Positions 31,085 through 46,431 of a stretch of 47,251 nt of DNA are shown here, one piece after another. Within the stretch, counting starts at the first letter, position 1. Every line of letters begins with the position of its first letter. Position numbers and translations under genes: made by a program. This DNA is from a virus: IMG/VR virus record IMGVR_UViG_3300027743_000039, positions 1 through 47,251 of that record, one strand, 5' to 3'. Below the pieces are notes generated by a model that had not been told where the DNA came from, did not search any database, and saw nothing but the letters and a program-made list of their open reading frames with translations.

Positions 31085-31924
31085 ATGGCCGTCAAGCTTC
31101 CGATCTACGTGGTCTCGATGGGGCGGCGCTCGCAGACCGCGCTCAAGCTGCATCAGGCAAACGTGCCGTTCACGCTGGTGACGCATACTCCGAAGATGCT
31201 CAACGATTTCATCGACCTCTGTGGGTTCGCGCCTACCAATGCGCTGGTCACCAACAGAAAGGGGCTGCTCAGCTCGCGCAACGCCATCATGGAGATGACG
31301 CCCGACAATTCATGGTACTTCTGTCTCGACGACGACATCAACACGGTCACGCGCGTCGATCCGAAGTATCGTGGCGAGTTCAAGCTTGAAGTGACCGGGC
31401 CACCGCCACCGGGTTTCAAGTCGTGGCGCGAGGTCTACAAGCGACCGATCTCGATGAAAGAACTCGTCGATGCGGCTCAAGGCGTCATTGCCGAGTGCAA
31501 GCGCCAGGACACGGTGATGGGCGGCTTCGCCACCATGGAAAACCCGTATTTCCGTGCGCGGCGATGGGGCCGCATACGCGGCGTGGGAATCGCGGCGTTC
31601 GTATTTCAAAAACGAAGGGGAGGCATCGACAGGTTCAAGTATCCGTGCATGCAAGATCAGTGGATGTCGATGAACGTTATCAGGGAACATGGCTCGGTGG
31701 TCGTCGACAACTTCGTTCACGTCGGCGCTGATATGTTCACACCGGGCGGGATCGGCGTATTCGAAGAACGAATGCCCGAGATGCAGCGCATACAGCGCCT
31801 TATCATCGAGGAGTTCGAAGGACTGGCCAAGCCGTCTTCTGTTTGTCCCAATATCCACTACATCAGCCGTTCACGCACGTTCGTAGACAGGTGGCGTGCA
31901 AGACAAGGGGAGCGCAAACAATGA
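31085..31924 (+). CDS. GT-A glycosyltransferase, TET-associated glycosyltransferase-like (copy 1)
   Basis: A 279-residue protein with GGAG before its ATG. The layout is that of the TAGT group: an N-terminal strand KLPIYVVSMGRRSQTALKLH, an SSRNAI segment (63-68) and the metal-binding DDD triad (82-84, in WYFCLDDDINTV), followed by an acceptor region with FATMENPYFR and a late W/D/H-rich part. TAGT enzymes add sugars to hydroxymethylated bases in phage DNA. A related gene with the same layout is at 42732. A role on other substrates such as surface glycans cannot be excluded. Confidence 0.72.
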   Translation: MAVKLPIYVVSMGRRSQTALKLHQANVPFTLVTHTPKMLNDFIDLCGFAPTNALVTNRKGLLSSRNAIMEMTPDNSWYFCLDDDINTVTRVDPKYRGEFKLEVTGPPPPGFKSWREVYKRPISMKELVDAAQGVIAECKRQDTVMGGFATMENPYFRARRWGRIRGVGIAAFVFQKRRGGIDRFKYPCMQDQWMSMNVIREHGSVVVDNFVHVGADMFTPGGIGVFEERMPEMQRIQRLIIEEFEGLAKPSSVCPNIHYISRSRTFVDRWRARQGERKQ

Positions 31925-38871: not shown

Positions 38872-39203
38872 GCGAGAAATCAATGGTAGAAAACCCCGTC
38901 GTCAAGTGGGCGCGCGACCACGGCGTCACGGTGTTGAAGGTGAACCCGATCTGGTATGCCGGTTGGAACGACCGCATATTCTTCGTTCCCGGAGGTAAGC
39001 CGGTCATCGTCGAATTCAAGGCACCGGGCGTCACCACCGTGCGACCGAAGCAGAAGGCCCGCCACAAGAACCTTAGGAAACTTGGCTATGACGTCCATGT
39101 CATCGACACGAAGCAAGAAGGCATCGCGCTCATCGAGTCGCGTCTCGTCAAGAGTAGTGAACCGGCTGCCAAGAACAGAAGGGCTAGAGTGGGTTCCAGC
39201 TGA
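38868..39203 (+). CDS. VRR-NUC domain nuclease
   Basis: A 111-residue stand-alone VRR-NUC protein. The catalytic pattern Asp35 ... Glu49-Phe-Lys51 (PVIVEFKAPG) is present, followed by VRPKQKARHKNLRKLGYDVH, the typical Q-x-x-x-H/L-G-Y-x-V-x-V-I-D end. Such small enzymes are Holliday-junction-type resolvases in phages. It overlaps the following helicase gene by about 47 bases; the pair VRR-NUC plus SF2 helicase is a common phage arrangement. Confidence 0.85.
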   Translation: MSEKSMVENPVVKWARDHGVTVLKVNPIWYAGWNDRIFFVPGGKPVIVEFKAPGVTTVRPKQKARHKNLRKLGYDVHVIDTKQEGIALIESRLVKSSEPAAKNRRARVGSS

Positions 39204-40722
39204 CTTCATGAAGCGGGCGATGCGATGGCTGCTCCAGCATCCAGCCGCCGGCCTCATTCTCGACCCCGGTCTGCGCAAGACGTCGATCACGCTCGGCGCG
39301 TTCAAGGTAATGCTGAACAAGGGCATTCTGCAACGGATGCTGGTCGTCGCGCCGATCAAGGTCTGCTACCGCGTCTGGCCGAAGGAAATACGGAAGTGGG
39401 CCGACTTCAACGGCCTGCGCCTCTGCATACTTCATGGCCGCGACAAGACCGAAGAAAACCTTGCGCGCGACGACATCGACATTTTCTGCATCAACCCTGA
39501 GGGACTCGACTGGCTGTTCCCAGGTGAATCGCCGCTGCCGAAGCTCGCCACCGAAACCAAGGACGCATGGCGCGCGCGGAACAAGGCGCACCAGAAAGAA
39601 ACGCGGAAGGCGGCGAAGCGTCGTTCAGCTCTGTTGTTCGCGCCCGGTGGCACGATGCTCACCGTCGACGAATCATCGAAGTTCAAGAACAGCAGCACTC
39701 AGCGGTTCAAGCGCCTGAAGCCGTTCTTGCCACGCTTCCAACGCCGTGCTATACTCACTGGGTCACCATCTCCAAATGGTCTGCTCGATCTGTTCGGCCA
39801 GATATACATCCTCGATCTCGGCCGCTCGCTCGGTCAGTACATCACGCAGTACCGCAAGAAGTATTTCTCGTCTGTTGGCTTCGGAGGTTATTCATGGGTT
39901 CTTAAGGAAGACGACAGCGAGCAGCAGATCTACAAGGCGGTGAAGCCGTACTTGATACGGTTCCAAGCCGAAGACTTCATGGACCTTCCCGAGTTGATCG
40001 AGAACGACATCGTGATCGACCTGCCAGAAAAGGTTCGCAAGAACTACGATGAACTCGAGGAAGACCTCATCACCATGCTCGAGAGCGGTGTGAACATCGA
40101 AGCTCCAACCGGCGGCGCGGCGCTGGCCAAGTGTGCGCAGATCGCCAATGGCGCGGTCTACTTGAACCCAGAAGGCGGGTACCGTCGCAAGAAAAGCGAC
40201 TACGCCGAGCTCCACGATGAGAAGCTCTACGCGCTCGAAGACTACCTCGAAGAACGCAGCGGTCAACCGACGCTGGTGACGTACGAGTTCCACCACGACT
40301 TGATCCGCATAAGAAATTGGTTTCGCCATGCGTATCCCGCGCTGGTGCGCGAATGGGGCGACATCCCGTGCATCAGCACCGCATCGGAAAAGGTCGGCCA
40401 ACGCATGGAGGATGCCTGGAACGACAACCAGATCCCGTTCATGCTGGGCCAGCCGCAGTCGATCAGTCATGGGCTCAACATGCAAGGTGGCAACGCCGAC
40501 GCCATCGCGCTGTTCTCGCCCATGTATGACTACGACAACTATGATCAGCTGATAAGGCGGCTGCGGCGCTCGGGCAATACGTCGCGGCGCATCATCGTTA
40601 CGCGGTTCATCGCGCGGAACACCGTCGACCGGCTCAAGATACTGGCGCTGGTGAGAAAAGGCAGGACGCAACAACGGTTCATGGATGCACTCAAGACGTA
40701 CAAAACGGAGAGACGACAATGA
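39157..40722 (+). CDS. SF2 (SNF2/DEAD-like) helicase
   Basis: From GTG 39157 the protein has 521 residues. The N-terminal WVPADFMKRAMRWLLQHPAA is the Q-like motif of this phage helicase group and demands a start upstream of the ATG at 39208. The P-loop reads LDPGLRKTS (35-43), where relatives have DPGLGKT. Motif II is TVDESSKFKN and motif III is LTGSPSPN. Motifs V and VI are in ISHGLNMQGGNADAIALFSP and LIRRLRRSGN. It probably unwinds DNA for recombination or replication. The Gly-to-Arg change in the P-loop is unusual. Confidence 0.82.
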   Translation: MNRLPRTEGLEWVPADFMKRAMRWLLQHPAAGLILDPGLRKTSITLGAFKVMLNKGILQRMLVVAPIKVCYRVWPKEIRKWADFNGLRLCILHGRDKTEENLARDDIDIFCINPEGLDWLFPGESPLPKLATETKDAWRARNKAHQKETRKAAKRRSALLFAPGGTMLTVDESSKFKNSSTQRFKRLKPFLPRFQRRAILTGSPSPNGLLDLFGQIYILDLGRSLGQYITQYRKKYFSSVGFGGYSWVLKEDDSEQQIYKAVKPYLIRFQAEDFMDLPELIENDIVIDLPEKVRKNYDELEEDLITMLESGVNIEAPTGGAALAKCAQIANGAVYLNPEGGYRRKKSDYAELHDEKLYALEDYLEERSGQPTLVTYEFHHDLIRIRNWFRHAYPALVREWGDIPCISTASEKVGQRMEDAWNDNQIPFMLGQPQSISHGLNMQGGNADAIALFSPMYDYDNYDQLIRRLRRSGNTSRRIIVTRFIARNTVDRLKILALVRKGRTQQRFMDALKTYKTERRQ

Positions 40723-41684
40723 AGGCAAGAAGGCAAGAACCGCCGTTCGCGGTGCAGATCGAACCGTCGCAGGGTTGCAATCTCGGATGCGACTTCTGCG
40801 GCATTCACGCCATCGGCTACCAGAAAAAGAAGCGCGGCACCGACCTCATGTCTATTGAAACGGCCCGCAGCATCGCCGCGCAGATGATACAGTGGGACTG
40901 GAACCCGCGCATTGAGTTCGCCATGCACGGTGAGCCCACCATGCATCCCGCGCTCGACGTGCTCATCGCCACGTTCCGAGAAGCGTTGCCACGCGGCTAC
41001 ATCATGGTGACGTCGAATGGCGGCGGTCTGCTCGGCGGCGACGTTGCGGGCAAGGTTCTCGGCCTCTTCGAAGCCGGGCTCAACACGCTGGCGCTCGACA
41101 ACTACGAGAGCGTGAGCATCGTGCCTAAGATACTAGAAAAGCTGGGCGACGAGTTCCCCGTGCCGATCAAGCACTATCCACTAGACAAGACAGCGTCGCC
41201 GCACACCCGCCACCGCAAGCAATTGATCAGCGTGGTGCAGGACATCTCAGTGGCCGACGACGGCACGCATTCGCACTTGAACAATCACGCAGGCTCGGCG
41301 TTCCCGAAAAACTATGAGCACAATTCTGCGCGCTGCGCCAAGCCGTTCCGTGAGATGTCGATACGCTGGGATGGCTCCGTGGCGATCTGCTGCAACGACT
41401 GGCCGGGATACTACCATTGCGGCAACGTCGTGACCGACGGACTCGACAAGGTATGGAACGGCCCCGCGTTCGCAGCGGCGCGCAAGGTTCTGTACCACGG
41501 CAAGCGCGGCATGATCAAGCCATGCAACGGATGCGACGCGCTCAGCTATCGCGTTGGTCTGCTTCCCGACAAGCTCGGTCGTGAATCGCTACCGACGCCC
41601 GACGCCACGACCAAGCGCGCGATTGAACTCGCGCAGGCGAAGGGACCATTCACCGTTCCAGTACGTCCACCGATGGAGGCATGA
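40719..41684 (+). CDS. Radical SAM/SPASM enzyme, candidate DNA-base modification
   Basis: A 321-residue enzyme overlapping the helicase stop (ATGA). The SAM cluster motif is CNLGCDFC (Cys20, 24, 27), with the GGE-like HGEP at 70-73. A SPASM-type C-terminal domain carries Cys206, 224, 225, 234, 269 and 272 (AICCNDWPGYYHC; CNGCDA), so one or two extra 4Fe-4S clusters are likely. Phages with hypermodified thymidine (the M6/ViI type) encode radical SAM enzymes that rearrange an amino acid attached to the base. Its place before transferase genes suggests such a step. Confidence 0.82.
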   Translation: MKARRQEPPFAVQIEPSQGCNLGCDFCGIHAIGYQKKKRGTDLMSIETARSIAAQMIQWDWNPRIEFAMHGEPTMHPALDVLIATFREALPRGYIMVTSNGGGLLGGDVAGKVLGLFEAGLNTLALDNYESVSIVPKILEKLGDEFPVPIKHYPLDKTASPHTRHRKQLISVVQDISVADDGTHSHLNNHAGSAFPKNYEHNSARCAKPFREMSIRWDGSVAICCNDWPGYYHCGNVVTDGLDKVWNGPAFAAARKVLYHGKRGMIKPCNGCDALSYRVGLLPDKLGRESLPTPDATTKRAIELAQAKGPFTVPVRPPMEA

Positions 41685-41685
41685 T

Positions 41686-42735
41686 ATGCACAAGATGCAA
41701 GAAATCGCCTTGATCTACGCACGCGAACAGGTTGGAGGCGGAAGCACGTCGTTCACCGTGCATCTGTACGAAGGCTTCAAGCAGGCGGGCATTCCGTTCA
41801 GACTGCTGCGGTTCACCGACAGGCCGAAGCGACCGCGAAGACTGGCGGGCTACACCGGCGTCATAGCTGAATACGTGACACCGGACGAAATGAGGGCCAT
41901 CGTGCGTTCGCAGCCATCGGTTCTGCTGGCGCCAGAACACTCGCGTCACCTGCCTGAACCCGACATACTTTCGTCACTGGCAGCCGATGGCATGCGTCTT
42001 GTGATCCATGATCCGAACGAGTTCATGGCACGCACGCACGCCAAGATATTCGATCACCTGCAAAATAGATCAATAATAAAGCGACCAATCGCGATCCGCC
42101 CAAGCATGAAAACCCACTTCAAAGATGCCGTGTTCATCCCACATCCTTACTGGCGTGAATACGAGGGATGGCAGGGCAAGGACCTCATGAAGCGCGGCCC
42201 CGGCTGCACCATCGCCCGCTTGACGTTCGTGAAGCGACCGACGATAATTCTCGACGCCAACCGGCTGCTCACGCCAGCGATGCAGATAAAGATACACGGT
42301 GCCGAGAACCGGCTGTTCACCTACACGAAGGTTCTGCCGCACTATCCCGAGTTCAAGCAGGGAGGTTACAATCTGCCGCTCGAATGGGGCATCAGCGCGC
42401 GCGTGGCCCGTCAGCATCGCTTCGCCGTCGACATGACGTACTTCCCCGAAGACGGCGGCGGTTCGCAATATACGTTCATGGAAGCCTGGGACGCGGGAAG
42501 CGTCAACATCTGCCACGAGGACTGGCTGCGCTACGAAGGAGAAATGAAGCACCGCGTGAACTGTTGGGCGGTCGAGTCGCCCGAAGAACTGGCGAAGCTG
42601 ATCAAAAATTCGTACAGCTCGAAATCTCTGCAAACAGAACTCAGAAAAATATCTGCCGCTTCCACCGAGCATCTCGAACGCAAGCACGATCCAGCGACTA
42701 TCGCCCGCGCTTACTACAAGGAGCTGACACGATGA
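41686..42735 (+). CDS. GT-B glycosyltransferase
   Basis: A 349-residue protein with GGAGG six bases before its ATG, one base after the radical SAM gene. The N-terminal domain starts with REQVGGGSTSFTVHLYEGFK and the C-terminal domain has YFPEDGGGSQYTFMEAWDAG, a GT4-like nucleotide-sugar binding pattern with Glu in the usual place. Late motifs are NCWAVESPEELAKLIKN. Its place in the modification block suggests transfer of a sugar to a modified base; a role in surface glycan change is the alternative. Confidence 0.75.
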   Translation: MHKMQEIALIYAREQVGGGSTSFTVHLYEGFKQAGIPFRLLRFTDRPKRPRRLAGYTGVIAEYVTPDEMRAIVRSQPSVLLAPEHSRHLPEPDILSSLAADGMRLVIHDPNEFMARTHAKIFDHLQNRSIIKRPIAIRPSMKTHFKDAVFIPHPYWREYEGWQGKDLMKRGPGCTIARLTFVKRPTIILDANRLLTPAMQIKIHGAENRLFTYTKVLPHYPEFKQGGYNLPLEWGISARVARQHRFAVDMTYFPEDGGGSQYTFMEAWDAGSVNICHEDWLRYEGEMKHRVNCWAVESPEELAKLIKNSYSSKSLQTELRKISAASTEHLERKHDPATIARAYYKELTR

Positions 42736-43568
42736 AAATGAAAATATACATTCCAACGCGCGGTCGTGAACGCCTGCGCACCGTTGAACGCTTTGGCGAA
42801 GACCTGCTGAACAAGTATTCGGCGGTGCTGGTATCGTCGCGCGACAATGCGATCAAATACGATCTTAAGAAGTACGTCGACCGCGCCAAGCTTCTGTTCA
42901 CTCCGCCGAAGGTCGACGGCATCGCCGCCACGCGCCAGTTCATTATCAACAACGCAGCCGCGCTTGAAGTCAACGTGGCGTTGATGCTCGACGACGATCT
43001 GCCGACGTGGTGCCAGCGTAATCCAGATCCCGAGATCGACACCGGCGAAGACGCGAAGTATCACAAGGCAAGCGTCAGGGAAATTGCCGACGGTCTTGCC
43101 GACTTCGCCAAGATCATGCAGAAGTATGCGCACGGATCGATCGGTCATCGCCTGTTCTGCCAGCGCCATGCTCCCGTCTACTACAATATGCGCATGCTCC
43201 GCGCGCTGGCGTACAACATTCCGATGGTCGAGAAGGCCGGTGTCAAGTTCAGAGTGCCGGTAATGGAGGACTTCGATTTTCAGTTGCAGCTGATGACGAA
43301 GGGATACGAGAACGTAATCTACAACCGTCTCGTCCAAGACCAATACGGAAGCAACATCGAAGGCGGATGCGCCGAGTACCGCACACCCGAAGTGCAGGCC
43401 GCAGCCGCAGCCAAGCTCAAGGAACTGTGGCCCGACATCATCACTATCACGACGCGCAAGCCAAAGCGTTCATGGGGCACGGGCATGGAAGGCGAGCGCG
43501 TCGACGTGAAGGTGAACTGGCGTCGCGCGATTCTTGCAGGTCGTCAGCTCAAGGAGAAAAGGAAATGA
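42732..43568 (+). CDS. GT-A glycosyltransferase, TET-associated glycosyltransferase-like (copy 2)
   Basis: A 278-residue protein overlapping the GT-B gene (ATGA). N-terminal MKMKIYIPTRGRERLRTVER, a TRQFIINNA segment (68-76) and the DDD triad (87-89, in VALMLDDDLPTW) give the same layout as the gene at 31085. Later parts include VMEDFDFQLQLMTKGYENVI and QYGSNIEGGC. I infer glycosylation of hydroxymethyl-pyrimidine DNA. Sequence similarity between the two copies seems confined to motifs, so they may use different acceptors or sugars. Confidence 0.75.
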   Translation: MKMKIYIPTRGRERLRTVERFGEDLLNKYSAVLVSSRDNAIKYDLKKYVDRAKLLFTPPKVDGIAATRQFIINNAAALEVNVALMLDDDLPTWCQRNPDPEIDTGEDAKYHKASVREIADGLADFAKIMQKYAHGSIGHRLFCQRHAPVYYNMRMLRALAYNIPMVEKAGVKFRVPVMEDFDFQLQLMTKGYENVIYNRLVQDQYGSNIEGGCAEYRTPEVQAAAAAKLKELWPDIITITTRKPKRSWGTGMEGERVDVKVNWRRAILAGRQLKEKRK

Positions 43569-44398
43569 AAGTAGCAGAACTCCTCGAATTCATCAAGAGG
43601 CGGCACGCGATATTCTTGAAGCGCAACGCTGGCAAGAAAAAGCCGTGGACCGACGACAAGATCCTGCAACGATTCAAGTTCTGCAACGTGTACCGAGAAC
43701 TTGATACCGTGACCATGTGGATCGCGCAGCATTGGCGCACGCCATTGATCGGCAATCCAGATCTCTGGTTCGCAATGAGCGTCGCGCGTTGGGTCAACTG
43801 GCCGCCGACGCTGTACGCCATCGGCATCCCGGTACCGTGGAAAAAGGACAAGTTCATTCGTGTTCTGCGCGAACGCAGCGCGCGTCATGAGAAAGTGTGG
43901 ACCGGCGCATACATGATCGGCACGCAGGGCCACGCCATGGACAAGAACCTGTTCATCGCCGAGAGCGTGCTCAATCCGTTGTGGCAGGAACGCGAGTATC
44001 TGCGTCCACGGCCCGACGACACGCTGGCGACGTTTGCGGCGCGCGTCATCGCGGTAAAGAACCAAGGAAGGTTCATGGTCGGCCAGATGATCGCAGACGC
44101 GAAGTATGCCGACAACGTGCTCATGGAATGCCGTGACTGGCACACGTTCGCCGTCAGCGGCCCCGGCAGCCGACGCGGCATGAACAGAGTGTTCAACCGC
44201 GACGTGCATTTCCATTGGAACGAAGACGACTGGCACCGGCATCTTATGATGCTGCAAGAAGCGGTGAACCCGAGCCTGCCACAAGGCTGGGAGAAGCTGC
44301 ACGCGCAGGATCTGCAGAACTGCCTGTGTGAATTCGACAAGTATGAACGCGTGCGCCTGGGACAAGGTCGGCCGCGTTCCCTTTATCAAGGAGTATGA
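43565..44398 (+). CDS. Amino acid:DNA transferase / hmdU kinase helical-domain family (aGPT-PPlase group)
   Basis: A 277-residue protein overlapping the previous stop (ATGA). It has the N-terminal signature KPWTDDKILQRFKFCNVYRE (26-45) followed by LDTVTMWIAQHW, then LWFAMSVARWVNWPPTL, and the C-terminal LCEFDKYERVRLGQGRPRS. I recognise this as the family first described as alpha-glutamyl/putrescinyl-thymine pyrophosphorylases and later split into hmdU-kinase helical and amino acid:DNA transferase groups. They act on 5-hydroxymethyluracil in DNA. I cannot decide the exact subgroup by eye. No P-loop kinase partner is visible in the window. Confidence 0.8.
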   Translation: MKVAELLEFIKRRHAIFLKRNAGKKKPWTDDKILQRFKFCNVYRELDTVTMWIAQHWRTPLIGNPDLWFAMSVARWVNWPPTLYAIGIPVPWKKDKFIRVLRERSARHEKVWTGAYMIGTQGHAMDKNLFIAESVLNPLWQEREYLRPRPDDTLATFAARVIAVKNQGRFMVGQMIADAKYADNVLMECRDWHTFAVSGPGSRRGMNRVFNRDVHFHWNEDDWHRHLMMLQEAVNPSLPQGWEKLHAQDLQNCLCEFDKYERVRLGQGRPRSLYQGV

Positions 44399-44399
44399 C

Positions 44400-45464
44400 A
44401 TGCGGTGCATCATCGTAAGAAACGTAAACGAGGGACTGTCGAAGGCGCTGTTTGAACTCGTCACGCATCGGGTAACGCGCGACACGCGCAACGGCCCGGT
44501 CATCGCGTTCCCGTATCCAGTGTTCACAGAATACACGCGGCCCACCGAGCGCGTTCTGTTCAGCCCGATGCGCAACGCCAATCCCGTATTCCATTTCATG
44601 GAAGCGCTGTGGATGCTGGCGGGCCGACGCGACGTTGACTTCCCGGCGACATTCGTCAAACGCATGCGTGAATACAGCGACGACGGCGAAACTCTGTGGG
44701 GCGCGTATGGCTATCGCTGGCGCAGCTTCTTCGGTTTCGATCAACTCAGTTGGGTCGTCGATGAAATGAAGTCGAACCCGCAGACACGACGTTGCGTGAT
44801 TACCATGTGGAACGCCATGCACGACGGCGTGATCGACAAGGACTACATCAATTCCGATCTCGTCGTCGGCGGTCGTGGCGGCAAAGACGTGCCATGCAAC
44901 ACTCACATCTACGTCGACACGCGGAGCGAACGACTGAACATGTCCGTCTGCTGCCGTAGCAACGACATTCTGTGGGGCTGCTATGGATCGAACGCCGTTC
45001 ACTTCAGCATGTTGCAGGAATATCTCGCGGCGGCGGTCGGCGTGCCGGTTGGCAGGTTGATTCAGTTCTCGAACGATCTGCACCTCTACGCCAGCACCGT
45101 TGCCGAGCATGACATCGTTCCAATGGCGCTCGACGCTCACACGCATAACTACTATGAAGCCGACGGGAGTGATAAAATAGTCACTACTCCCCTGCTGGCC
45201 GAGGGCGAGAAGTTTTCGGACTTCGACAACGACTTGAAGTCGTTCTTCGAAACCTACGACCGCGACGGCATTGCAGGCCAGATGGCGAGGGGATACCGCA
45301 CGCAGTTCTTCAACTTCGTGGTGGCACCGATGCTCACCGCCTGGGACAATCGTCGCGATCCGCGCAAGGCACTGAGCTATGCCGCGATCATCGGCGGCAG
45401 CGATTGGCGATTGGCGACGAAGAACTGGATCACGCACAACTTCATTAAGGAGAAGACGACATGA
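44400..45464 (+). CDS. Thymidylate synthase homologue / dUMP or dCMP hydroxymethylase
   Basis: A 354-residue protein with AAGGAG six bases before its ATG. The active-site Cys166 lies in VPCNTHIYV; the phosphate-binding RSND is at 186-189. Asn198 (CYGSNAVHFS) is at the base-recognition position, where Asn favours dUMP and Asp favours dCMP. The DLHLY motif (226-230) and the N-terminal FHFMEALWMLAG are also conserved. The RSNDILWGCYGSNAVHFS form is one I associate with phages having hypermodified pyrimidines rather than with cellular ThyA. I infer production of 5-hydroxymethyl-dUMP; dTMP cannot be excluded. Confidence 0.82.
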   Translation: MRCIIVRNVNEGLSKALFELVTHRVTRDTRNGPVIAFPYPVFTEYTRPTERVLFSPMRNANPVFHFMEALWMLAGRRDVDFPATFVKRMREYSDDGETLWGAYGYRWRSFFGFDQLSWVVDEMKSNPQTRRCVITMWNAMHDGVIDKDYINSDLVVGGRGGKDVPCNTHIYVDTRSERLNMSVCCRSNDILWGCYGSNAVHFSMLQEYLAAAVGVPVGRLIQFSNDLHLYASTVAEHDIVPMALDAHTHNYYEADGSDKIVTTPLLAEGEKFSDFDNDLKSFFETYDRDGIAGQMARGYRTQFFNFVVAPMLTAWDNRRDPRKALSYAAIIGGSDWRLATKNWITHNFIKEKTT

Positions 45465-45994
45465 GCATCCGCACCGATCTCGAATTCATTCGTTCAGGAA
45501 TGAACGTGCGACGTTATCACCAACGCTACACGGCGCAGTCCGACACCGTGGCTCATCATTCTTATGGCGTGGCTCTGCTGGTGAACATGATCGACCCAAC
45601 GGCGCGCAAGGAAGTCTTGCTGGCGGCGCTGGTGCACGATCTTCCCGAAGGCGTCACCGGCGACATGCCGGGCCACGTCAAGGCCGCGCTTCCACCGTCG
45701 ATGCGGCATGAACTGAGCAACGTCGAATCGCAACTGCTGGCGAAGCACGATCTGCTATTCGACCTCTCGCTCGATGAAGCGCAACTGCTGAAGCTTTGCG
45801 ACAAGCTCGAGAGCCTGCTGTTCTGCATCGAAGAACGGCAACGCGGCAACAAGGGACTGCGGTCGTGCGGCGACAAGTGTTCTGCATGGATCAACGAGAT
45901 AATGCAGAGCGCGGCAACCCTGTCTAGCGTCGGCAGCGCCCGCGCCCGTTCTATCGTCATCGCAGCAACAATCAAATGGGAGCACGTGAAATGA
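45461..45994 (+). CDS. HD-domain phosphohydrolase (YfbR/DatZ-like)
   Basis: A 177-residue protein overlapping the synthase gene (ATGA). HD residues are His33 (TVAHHSYGVALL), His59-Asp60-Leu-Pro-Glu63 and Asp114 (LCDKLESL). The N-terminal RTDLEFIRSGMNVRRYHQRY and the GDMPGHVK segment match the YfbR/DatZ type, whose members hydrolyse deoxynucleoside mono- or triphosphates. Beside a synthase homologue it may remove a competing canonical nucleotide from the pool. Specificity is not visible. Confidence 0.85.
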   Translation: MSIRTDLEFIRSGMNVRRYHQRYTAQSDTVAHHSYGVALLVNMIDPTARKEVLLAALVHDLPEGVTGDMPGHVKAALPPSMRHELSNVESQLLAKHDLLFDLSLDEAQLLKLCDKLESLLFCIEERQRGNKGLRSCGDKCSAWINEIMQSAATLSSVGSARARSIVIAATIKWEHVK

Positions 45995-46431
45995 GCGCCA
46001 ACAACAGACAGGAAGGCGGCAGCCACTACGCCGCAGGCGGCAACCGCTATCAGCATTGGGACTACACGGTGCGCGCACTCGACAATTCCTATCTCGAGGG
46101 ATGTCTTACGAAGTATGTCATGCGTAGTCGATTCAAAGGAACACCGCTCAACGATCTCAAGAAGGCGCGACACTACGCCGAGAAATTGATCGAGGAATCG
46201 AACGCGGGCGAAGTGTCGCCGCTGTTCAACCATCATTATCGGGAATTGACATTCGACATCGGCAGAATGTCGCGTATGCATGAACTGAACGACGAAGAAC
46301 ACGAGATTCTCGTTCGCGTTGCCAACTGGCGCAGCGTCGACGACATTCTTCATATCGTCGGCGTGATCGACCACCTGATCGCGCTGGCGGTGCAGGCGCA
46401 GGCAATCGGCCCACCGCATCCCACTGAATAA
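45991..46431 (+). CDS. DUF3310 nucleotide-kinase-like protein
   Basis: A 146-residue protein overlapping the HD gene (ATGA). The core GGSHYAAGGNRYQHWDYTVR, then SYLEGCLTKYVMRSRFKGTP, LNDLKKARHYAEKLIE, is characteristic of DUF3310. This domain is present in T7 gp1.7, a nucleotide kinase acting on dTMP and dGMP. It may phosphorylate the hydroxymethyl nucleotide made by the upstream synthase. The C-terminal half (HELNDEEHEILVRVANWRSV) is unassigned. Confidence 0.82.
   Translation: MSANNRQEGGSHYAAGGNRYQHWDYTVRALDNSYLEGCLTKYVMRSRFKGTPLNDLKKARHYAEKLIEESNAGEVSPLFNHHYRELTFDIGRMSRMHELNDEEHEILVRVANWRSVDDILHIVGVIDHLIALAVQAQAIGPPHPTE

Follow-up and report, generated by a model that had tools for sequence, protein, structure and literature searches.

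Phages that carry modified pyrimidines in their DNA provide the closest described counterparts of the locus reported here, a seven-gene operon (positions 40719–46431) in IMG/VR record IMGVR_UViG_3300027743_000039, a siphovirus whose 47,251 bp were analysed in full and are called the window below. The 5-NedU cluster of Pseudomonas phage M6 shares with the window, in the same order, genes for the helical protein HMUDK_hel (gp55), a thymidylate synthase (TS) homologue (gp58), an HD protein (gp59) and a DUF3310 protein (gp61). M6 also has a radical S-adenosylmethionine (SAM) gene (gp53), unrelated to that of the window, as well as a kinase (gp54, PF18748), an amino acid:DNA transferase (ADDT; gp51, PF18724) and a pyridoxal phosphate (PLP) enzyme (gp52); the window lacks the kinase and ADDT, and its operon has no PLP enzyme. 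The window instead encodes a GT-B glycosyltransferase, a TAGT-family glycosyltransferase and a radical SAM enzyme resembling BtrN, whereas no glycosyltransferase was found in the M6 region. The 5-hydroxymethylcytosine glucosylation systems of T4 and T6, with α-glucosyltransferase (AGT) and T6-type TAGT, are like the window in having a TS-family hydroxymethylase, a GT-B enzyme with an AGT-like fold and a TAGT-family glycosyltransferase; the window differs in its predicted base (uracil rather than cytosine, from a selector Asn), in the lack of an AGT family match by sequence and in the addition of HMUDK_hel and the radical SAM enzyme. In the T-even phages, a T6-type TAGT is believed to attach a second glucose (PMC13390438). 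In Bacillus phage SP-15 the thymine of the DNA is replaced by a sugar-bearing base, a glycosylated dihydroxypentyluracil (PMC5977210), but this phage, unlike the window, uses dihydroxypentyluracil as its base and has Thy1-type synthases and a carbohydrate gene cluster of its own. Finally, the cultured Brevibacterium phage LuckyBarnes (NC_047851) has a TS-TAGT-TAGT-HMUDK_hel arrangement that is kinase-free like the window; the region read in it contains neither a radical SAM gene nor an AGT-like GT-B gene. Of cultured phages it is the one most closely related to the kinase-free core. In this phage (locus L182:4436-8451, in which no kinase is present) HMUDK_hel is gp38, annotated as hypothetical.

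Tail genes of the window are lambda-like and lie on the minus strand, with replication genes on the plus strand. All seven operon members are on the plus strand, have Shine-Dalgarno-like starts and are translationally coupled. The gene for the radical SAM/SPASM enzyme (hereafter rSAM) is followed after a gap of 1 bp by GT-B, which overlaps TAGT by 4 bp; TAGT and HMUDK_hel also overlap by 4 bp, HMUDK_hel and TS are separated by 1 bp, and TS/HD and HD/DUF3310 each overlap by 4 bp. These are the coordinates and junctions given in a preliminary description of this DNA, and its gene identities were likewise borne out, with Pfam and PHROGs matches for radical SAM/SPASM, TAGT, PF18723, TS, HD and DUF3310 and an AlphaFold model for GT-B. 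The profiles it had suggested for checking, PF18723, PF20691, radical SAM and TS, were all matched in operon proteins; a further one, PF18724, had no match in the record. Its reading of the operon as a pathway for pyrimidine hypermodification is supported. We propose that the operon produces glycosylated 5-hydroxymethyluracil (hmU) in DNA by a kinase-independent route that includes a radical SAM step, a reading that we consider probable.

The TS-family enzyme (44400–45464; PF00303, E 9.5e-20; phrog_5131, E 4.8e-103) is a predicted dUMP 5-hydroxymethylase, and its best match in the Protein Data Bank (PDB) is the CMP 5-hydroxymethylase MilA (5jnh). Its relatives have Asn in 149/149 cases where MilA has Asp, and the catalytic Cys is conserved in 152/152. 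Asn at this position of TS enzymes reads uracil, so the product is expected to be 5-hydroxymethyl-dUMP (hmdUMP) and the modified base would lie at thymine positions. The HD-domain protein (45461–45994; PF12917, YfbR-like, E 8e-17; NF003009 below its cut-off) is a predicted 5'-deoxynucleotidase that would remove dTMP from the nucleotide pool. The region of the DUF3310 protein (45991–46431) that matches PF11753 (E 2.8e-6) is also found in PHROGs named nucleotide kinase, and the protein may be a nucleotide kinase for hmdUMP.

In Pfam, PF18723 is named as the helical domain of the 5-hydroxymethyldeoxyuridine DNA kinase (HMUDK_hel), PF18748 as the kinase and PF18724 as ADDT. The protein encoded at 43565–44398, which had been assigned to the aGPT-PPlase group, does belong to PF18723 (E 4.2e-39) but is not an amino-acid transferase, which is PF18724. 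The nearest folds to its AlphaFold model (pLDDT 96) are the phage glycinyltransferase PUGT (8z2n) and helix-hairpin-helix (HhH)-type DNA glycosylases, matched weakly (best E 0.03), and we predict that it is an hmU recognition or base-presenting module. The kinase itself, which the preliminary description had also failed to see, is absent from the entire window record: in a profile search of 50 records including the window, only a sister phage (L009) exceeded the PF18748 cut-off, with L010 below it. The search for PF18724 found it only in L010 and nowhere in the window record. The positive matches in other phages indicate that both searches work. Tet_JBP (PF12851) gave no match in the 50 records, and the control genomes gave none either.

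The sister phage shows where the kinase would stand. Its gene order is SNF2, a 226-residue open reading frame (ORF), PF18748 kinase, HMUDK_hel, TS, HD and DUF3310, and its proteins are 63% (HMUDK_hel), 52% (SNF2), 51% (TS) and 49% (primase) identical to those of the window; rSAM, GT-B and TAGT of the window stand in place of the 226-residue ORF and the kinase. In other records (L004, L005/L006 and L007/L008), rSAM, GT-B, TAGT, HMUDK_hel and TS occur in other orders at 26–53% identity. Chance is ruled out, as dozens of divergent phages have the same gene set with its order rearranged. The mixture of genes is indeed unusual, as the preliminary description held, but it is not a one-off: it is a recurrent cassette in many phages.

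The TAGT-family GT-A enzyme (42732–43568, 278 residues) matches PF20691 (E 4.8e-15; 56.5 bits against a gathering score of 27.5) and phrog_842 (E 6e-31), and its DDD motif is invariant. The GT-B enzyme (41686–42735, 349 residues) has no Pfam match at E<=0.1 and no PDB match by sequence, and it carries a conserved DGGGxQYTFxEAWDAG motif. Its AlphaFold model (pLDDT 92.3), compared with the PDB by Foldseek, has as its top three matches the T4 AGT structures 1y6f, 1y6g and 1y8z (E 3.6e-13 to 3e-12), and the AGT structures matched include complexes with hmU-containing DNA. PDB sequence searches with profiles of GT-B, TAGT, HMUDK_hel and the c24 family described below gave nothing useful. The earlier suggestion that TAGT glycosylates hydroxymethylated bases fits these data, and the GT-B fold is also nearest to a DNA glucosyltransferase. 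From the TAGT match and the AGT-like fold of GT-B, a sugar is the expected group. A second TAGT-like GT-A protein (TAGT2; 31085–31924, plus strand) lies outside the operon; it has no Pfam match, matches phrog_842 at E 6.8e-5 and conserves DDD, and its cluster (c33) aligns with TAGT in hhalign at 98.3% probability (E 2e-14), pointing to a distant relationship only.

We asked how kinase and glycosyltransferase genes are distributed among relatives by scanning viral contigs with rSAM (148 relatives, 80 kept), GT-B (14) and HMUDK_hel (562, 80 kept) and running iterated profiles on all loci, with clusters dereplicated at 90% HMUDK_hel identity. Contingency tests used loci from the HMUDK_hel scans alone, since loci collected through rSAM and GT-B would bias the counts. 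Clusters with HMUDK_hel and TS carry either a kinase or a glycosyltransferase: 23 hold only the kinase, 22 only a supported glycosyltransferase, one holds both and six hold neither (Fisher p=2.8e-8). Considering all loci, every HMUDK_hel+TS cluster without a kinase and without a recognised glycosyltransferase contains a member of the family c24. These proteins of about 310–380 residues (L014:8124-9092, L082:11252-12403, L102:7032-8141, L142:4254-5426 and L179:6040-7014) have no Pfam or PDB match, and we regard c24 as a candidate new modifying enzyme.

The exchange of partners is also apparent in the phylogeny of HMUDK_hel. A quick IQ-TREE tree of 97 proteins, with SH-aLRT support only and c24 counted among the glycosyltransferases, contains 12 changes between kinase and glycosyltransferase partners, at least 8 of which are forced by well-supported branches for either label. 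Partner labels are more clustered than in shuffles, yet far from a single origin, and the HMUDK_hel of the window falls in a well-supported six-row clade containing both types. These data fit HMUDK_hel being a shared module with a replaceable chemistry partner, as opposed to a dedicated subunit of the kinase. Separately, HMUDK_hel proteins 46–51% identical to that of the window occur on viral contigs of 120–463 kb (L119, L137, L140, L144 and L150), and searches for the TS and kinase families gave no match in these records.

The first gene of the operon, rSAM (40719–41684, 321 residues), encodes a radical SAM domain (PF04055, E 2.6e-9) and a SPASM domain (PF13186, E 1.4e-12), both above cut-off, and no NCBIfam model exceeded its cut-off. 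Its best PDB match is the butirosin biosynthesis dehydrogenase BtrN (E 6e-11; profile, 2.8e-17), with which it shares a radical SAM plus one-cluster SPASM/Twitch architecture over both regions. The invariant cysteines form a CX3CX2C motif (C20/C24/C27) and a putative auxiliary-cluster set (C206, C224, C225, C269 and C272) that aligns with that of BtrN; overall similarity is remote, and the substrate of BtrN is a free aminocyclitol. The analogy drawn earlier with the radical SAM enzymes of M6 and ViI failed, as hhalign gave a probability of 1.1% for homology to gp53, which we rejected. The rSAM family is almost exclusively phage-borne: the profile found 148 relatives on viral contigs and one confirmed relative in GTDB genomes, on a contig of a Patescibacteria metagenome-assembled genome, on which grounds a host origin was rejected. 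Among 50,697 phage records a single record was matched by each of three rSAM queries, at 25–27% identity. A role in anti-phage defence was discarded, PADLOC having returned only a weak viperin-like match on the radical SAM core.

The genomic company of rSAM is narrow. Of the rSAM loci flanked by 5 kb or more on each side, 55/56 contain a glycosyltransferase-like gene and 53/56 a glycosyltransferase, HMUDK_hel and TS together; a TAGT or GT-B gene, where one is present near rSAM, shares its strand in 87/87 loci, with a median gap of 0 bp. When c24 is not counted as a glycosyltransferase, 53/56 clusters with rSAM, HMUDK_hel and TS still hold a supported one. The converse dependence is looser: in the HMUDK_hel-scan set, rSAM occurs in 9/23 glycosyltransferase clusters and 1/29 others (p=0.003). 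Because glycosyltransferases are seen without rSAM, while rSAM without a glycosyltransferase is rare, rSAM probably acts after glycosylation or on the sugar. On one contig a single ORF between HMUDK_hel and TS (L125:3318-5060) fuses TAGT (residues 4–252) to rSAM (residues 271–579). The sole cluster with rSAM, HMUDK_hel and TS that has a kinase and no glycosyltransferase-like gene is L161:10010-20832. Some rSAM/TAGT cassettes also include c45, which by eye resembles FkbM-type methyltransferases (L066:10953-11729, L078:9267-9992, L076:5515-6321 and L064:6219-6950) and suggests methylated sugars in some phages.

We infer the chemistry of the proposed route, at every step, from the observed genes, families, fold matches, co-occurrence, kinase exclusion and partner swapping. 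The TS homologue would convert dUMP to hmdUMP, the HD nucleotidase and DUF3310 protein would shift the nucleotide pool away from dTMP and towards hmdUTP, and the phage polymerase would incorporate hmU at some or all of the thymine positions. HMUDK_hel, with its DNA-glycosylase-like base-handling fold, would then recognise or present hmU in DNA, serving the kinase in M6-type phages and the glycosyltransferases in the window phage. Since the kinase is lacking while AGT-like and TAGT enzymes are encoded, direct O-glycosylation is the simplest route: GT-B and TAGT would glycosylate the hydroxymethyl group directly, with a nucleotide sugar of the host as donor, and probably also the sugar so attached; a mono- or disaccharide would result. 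The BtrN-like rSAM would then abstract a hydrogen atom at one of the sugar carbons, the likeliest outcome being conversion of an alcohol into a ketone, otherwise epimerisation or dehydration; these reaction types (oxidation, epimerisation, dehydration) are indistinguishable from the sequence data. The broader proposal, that this is a widespread, undescribed modification class in which rSAM edits a sugar already on hmU in DNA to give keto-, epi- or deoxy-sugar bases, HMUDK_hel being an interchangeable base-presenting module paired many times with kinase or glycosyltransferase, we put forward tentatively, rating it somewhat below even chances.

Glycosylated hmU could also arise as proposed with rSAM acting earlier, on a free nucleotide sugar, so that an unusual donor is transferred. 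The small free cyclitol used by BtrN and the adjacency of rSAM and glycosyltransferase genes agree with this order, and the TAGT-rSAM fusion is compatible with either; however, searches of window genes turned up no further gene for nucleotide-sugar biosynthesis, and the rSAM family is nearly confined to these DNA-modification loci, which makes a free-sugar substrate unlikely. It is also improbable that rSAM modifies the base itself, for example by functionalising the methylene or by an oxidation that yields formyluracil from hmU, with the glycosyltransferases acting elsewhere or on that product. hmU is an alcohol, and BtrN and anSME-type relatives dehydrogenate alcohols or thiols, but rSAM tracks the glycosyltransferase genes and not hmU synthesis (the 9/23 against 1/29 above), and kinase loci, which also make hmU, carry it in only 1/24 clusters of the HMUDK_hel-scan set. 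That the thymidine hypermodification is amino-acid-derived, as in M6 and ViI, and the sugar an extra is very unlikely: HMUDK_hel, TS, HD and DUF3310 are indeed common to M6, but PF18748 and PF18724 are missing from the whole record, the operon has no PLP enzyme and rSAM is no relative of the M6 enzyme, so the amino-acid-derived group suggested earlier finds no support and the amino-acid transfer route was rejected. Equally remote is decoration of a virion protein or host glycan by the glycosyltransferases and rSAM, linked to the hmU genes by genetics only; phages can carry surface-modifying glycosyltransferases and SPASM enzymes often act on peptides, but here the genes overlap in one operon with TS and HMUDK_hel, the three-gene association holds in 53/56 well-flanked rSAM loci, the kinase slot is filled by glycosyltransferases, and relatives of TAGT and AGT act on DNA.

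Several points weigh against glycosylated hmU with a radical SAM step. The record is of an uncultured virus and may be incomplete, and the route is a proposal made from sequence. The likeness of GT-B to AGT is one of predicted fold, at 12–14% identity, with the scores of other GT-B enzymes not far behind. The weakness of the HMUDK_hel fold match leaves its putative role to be deduced from partner swapping, and a family named after a kinase could have a catalytic role of its own. SPASM chemistry is versatile, so that likeness to BtrN would not fix the reaction, the glycosyltransferase-like status of c24 is unproven, and the TAGT-rSAM fusion, seen on one contig, could be an assembly error.

Upstream of the operon, an SNF2-family helicase (38956–40722, plus strand; PF00176, E 1.8e-16) overlaps the start of rSAM by 4 bp and holds the same position in the sister phage; it is a conserved neighbour, not a modification enzyme. 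A full-text literature search found no account of a cassette combining rSAM, TAGT and HMUDK_hel, the central hypermodification papers being beyond its reach, and we therefore describe the operon provisionally as a new variant of thymidine hypermodification, with its chemistry deduced as above.

If the proposed route is correct, radical-edited glycosyl-hmU would constitute a chemically new class among DNA bases. It would also suggest a rule for HMUDK_hel operons, in which a kinase leads to phosphorylation, often with amino-acid chemistry, and a glycosyltransferase leads to sugar chemistry, and PF18723, named after the kinase, would be recast as a common module with a swapped partner. The rSAM proteins would be candidate catalysts of site-selective radical reactions on sugars linked to DNA, and for the phages the modification would likely be a means to block restriction.

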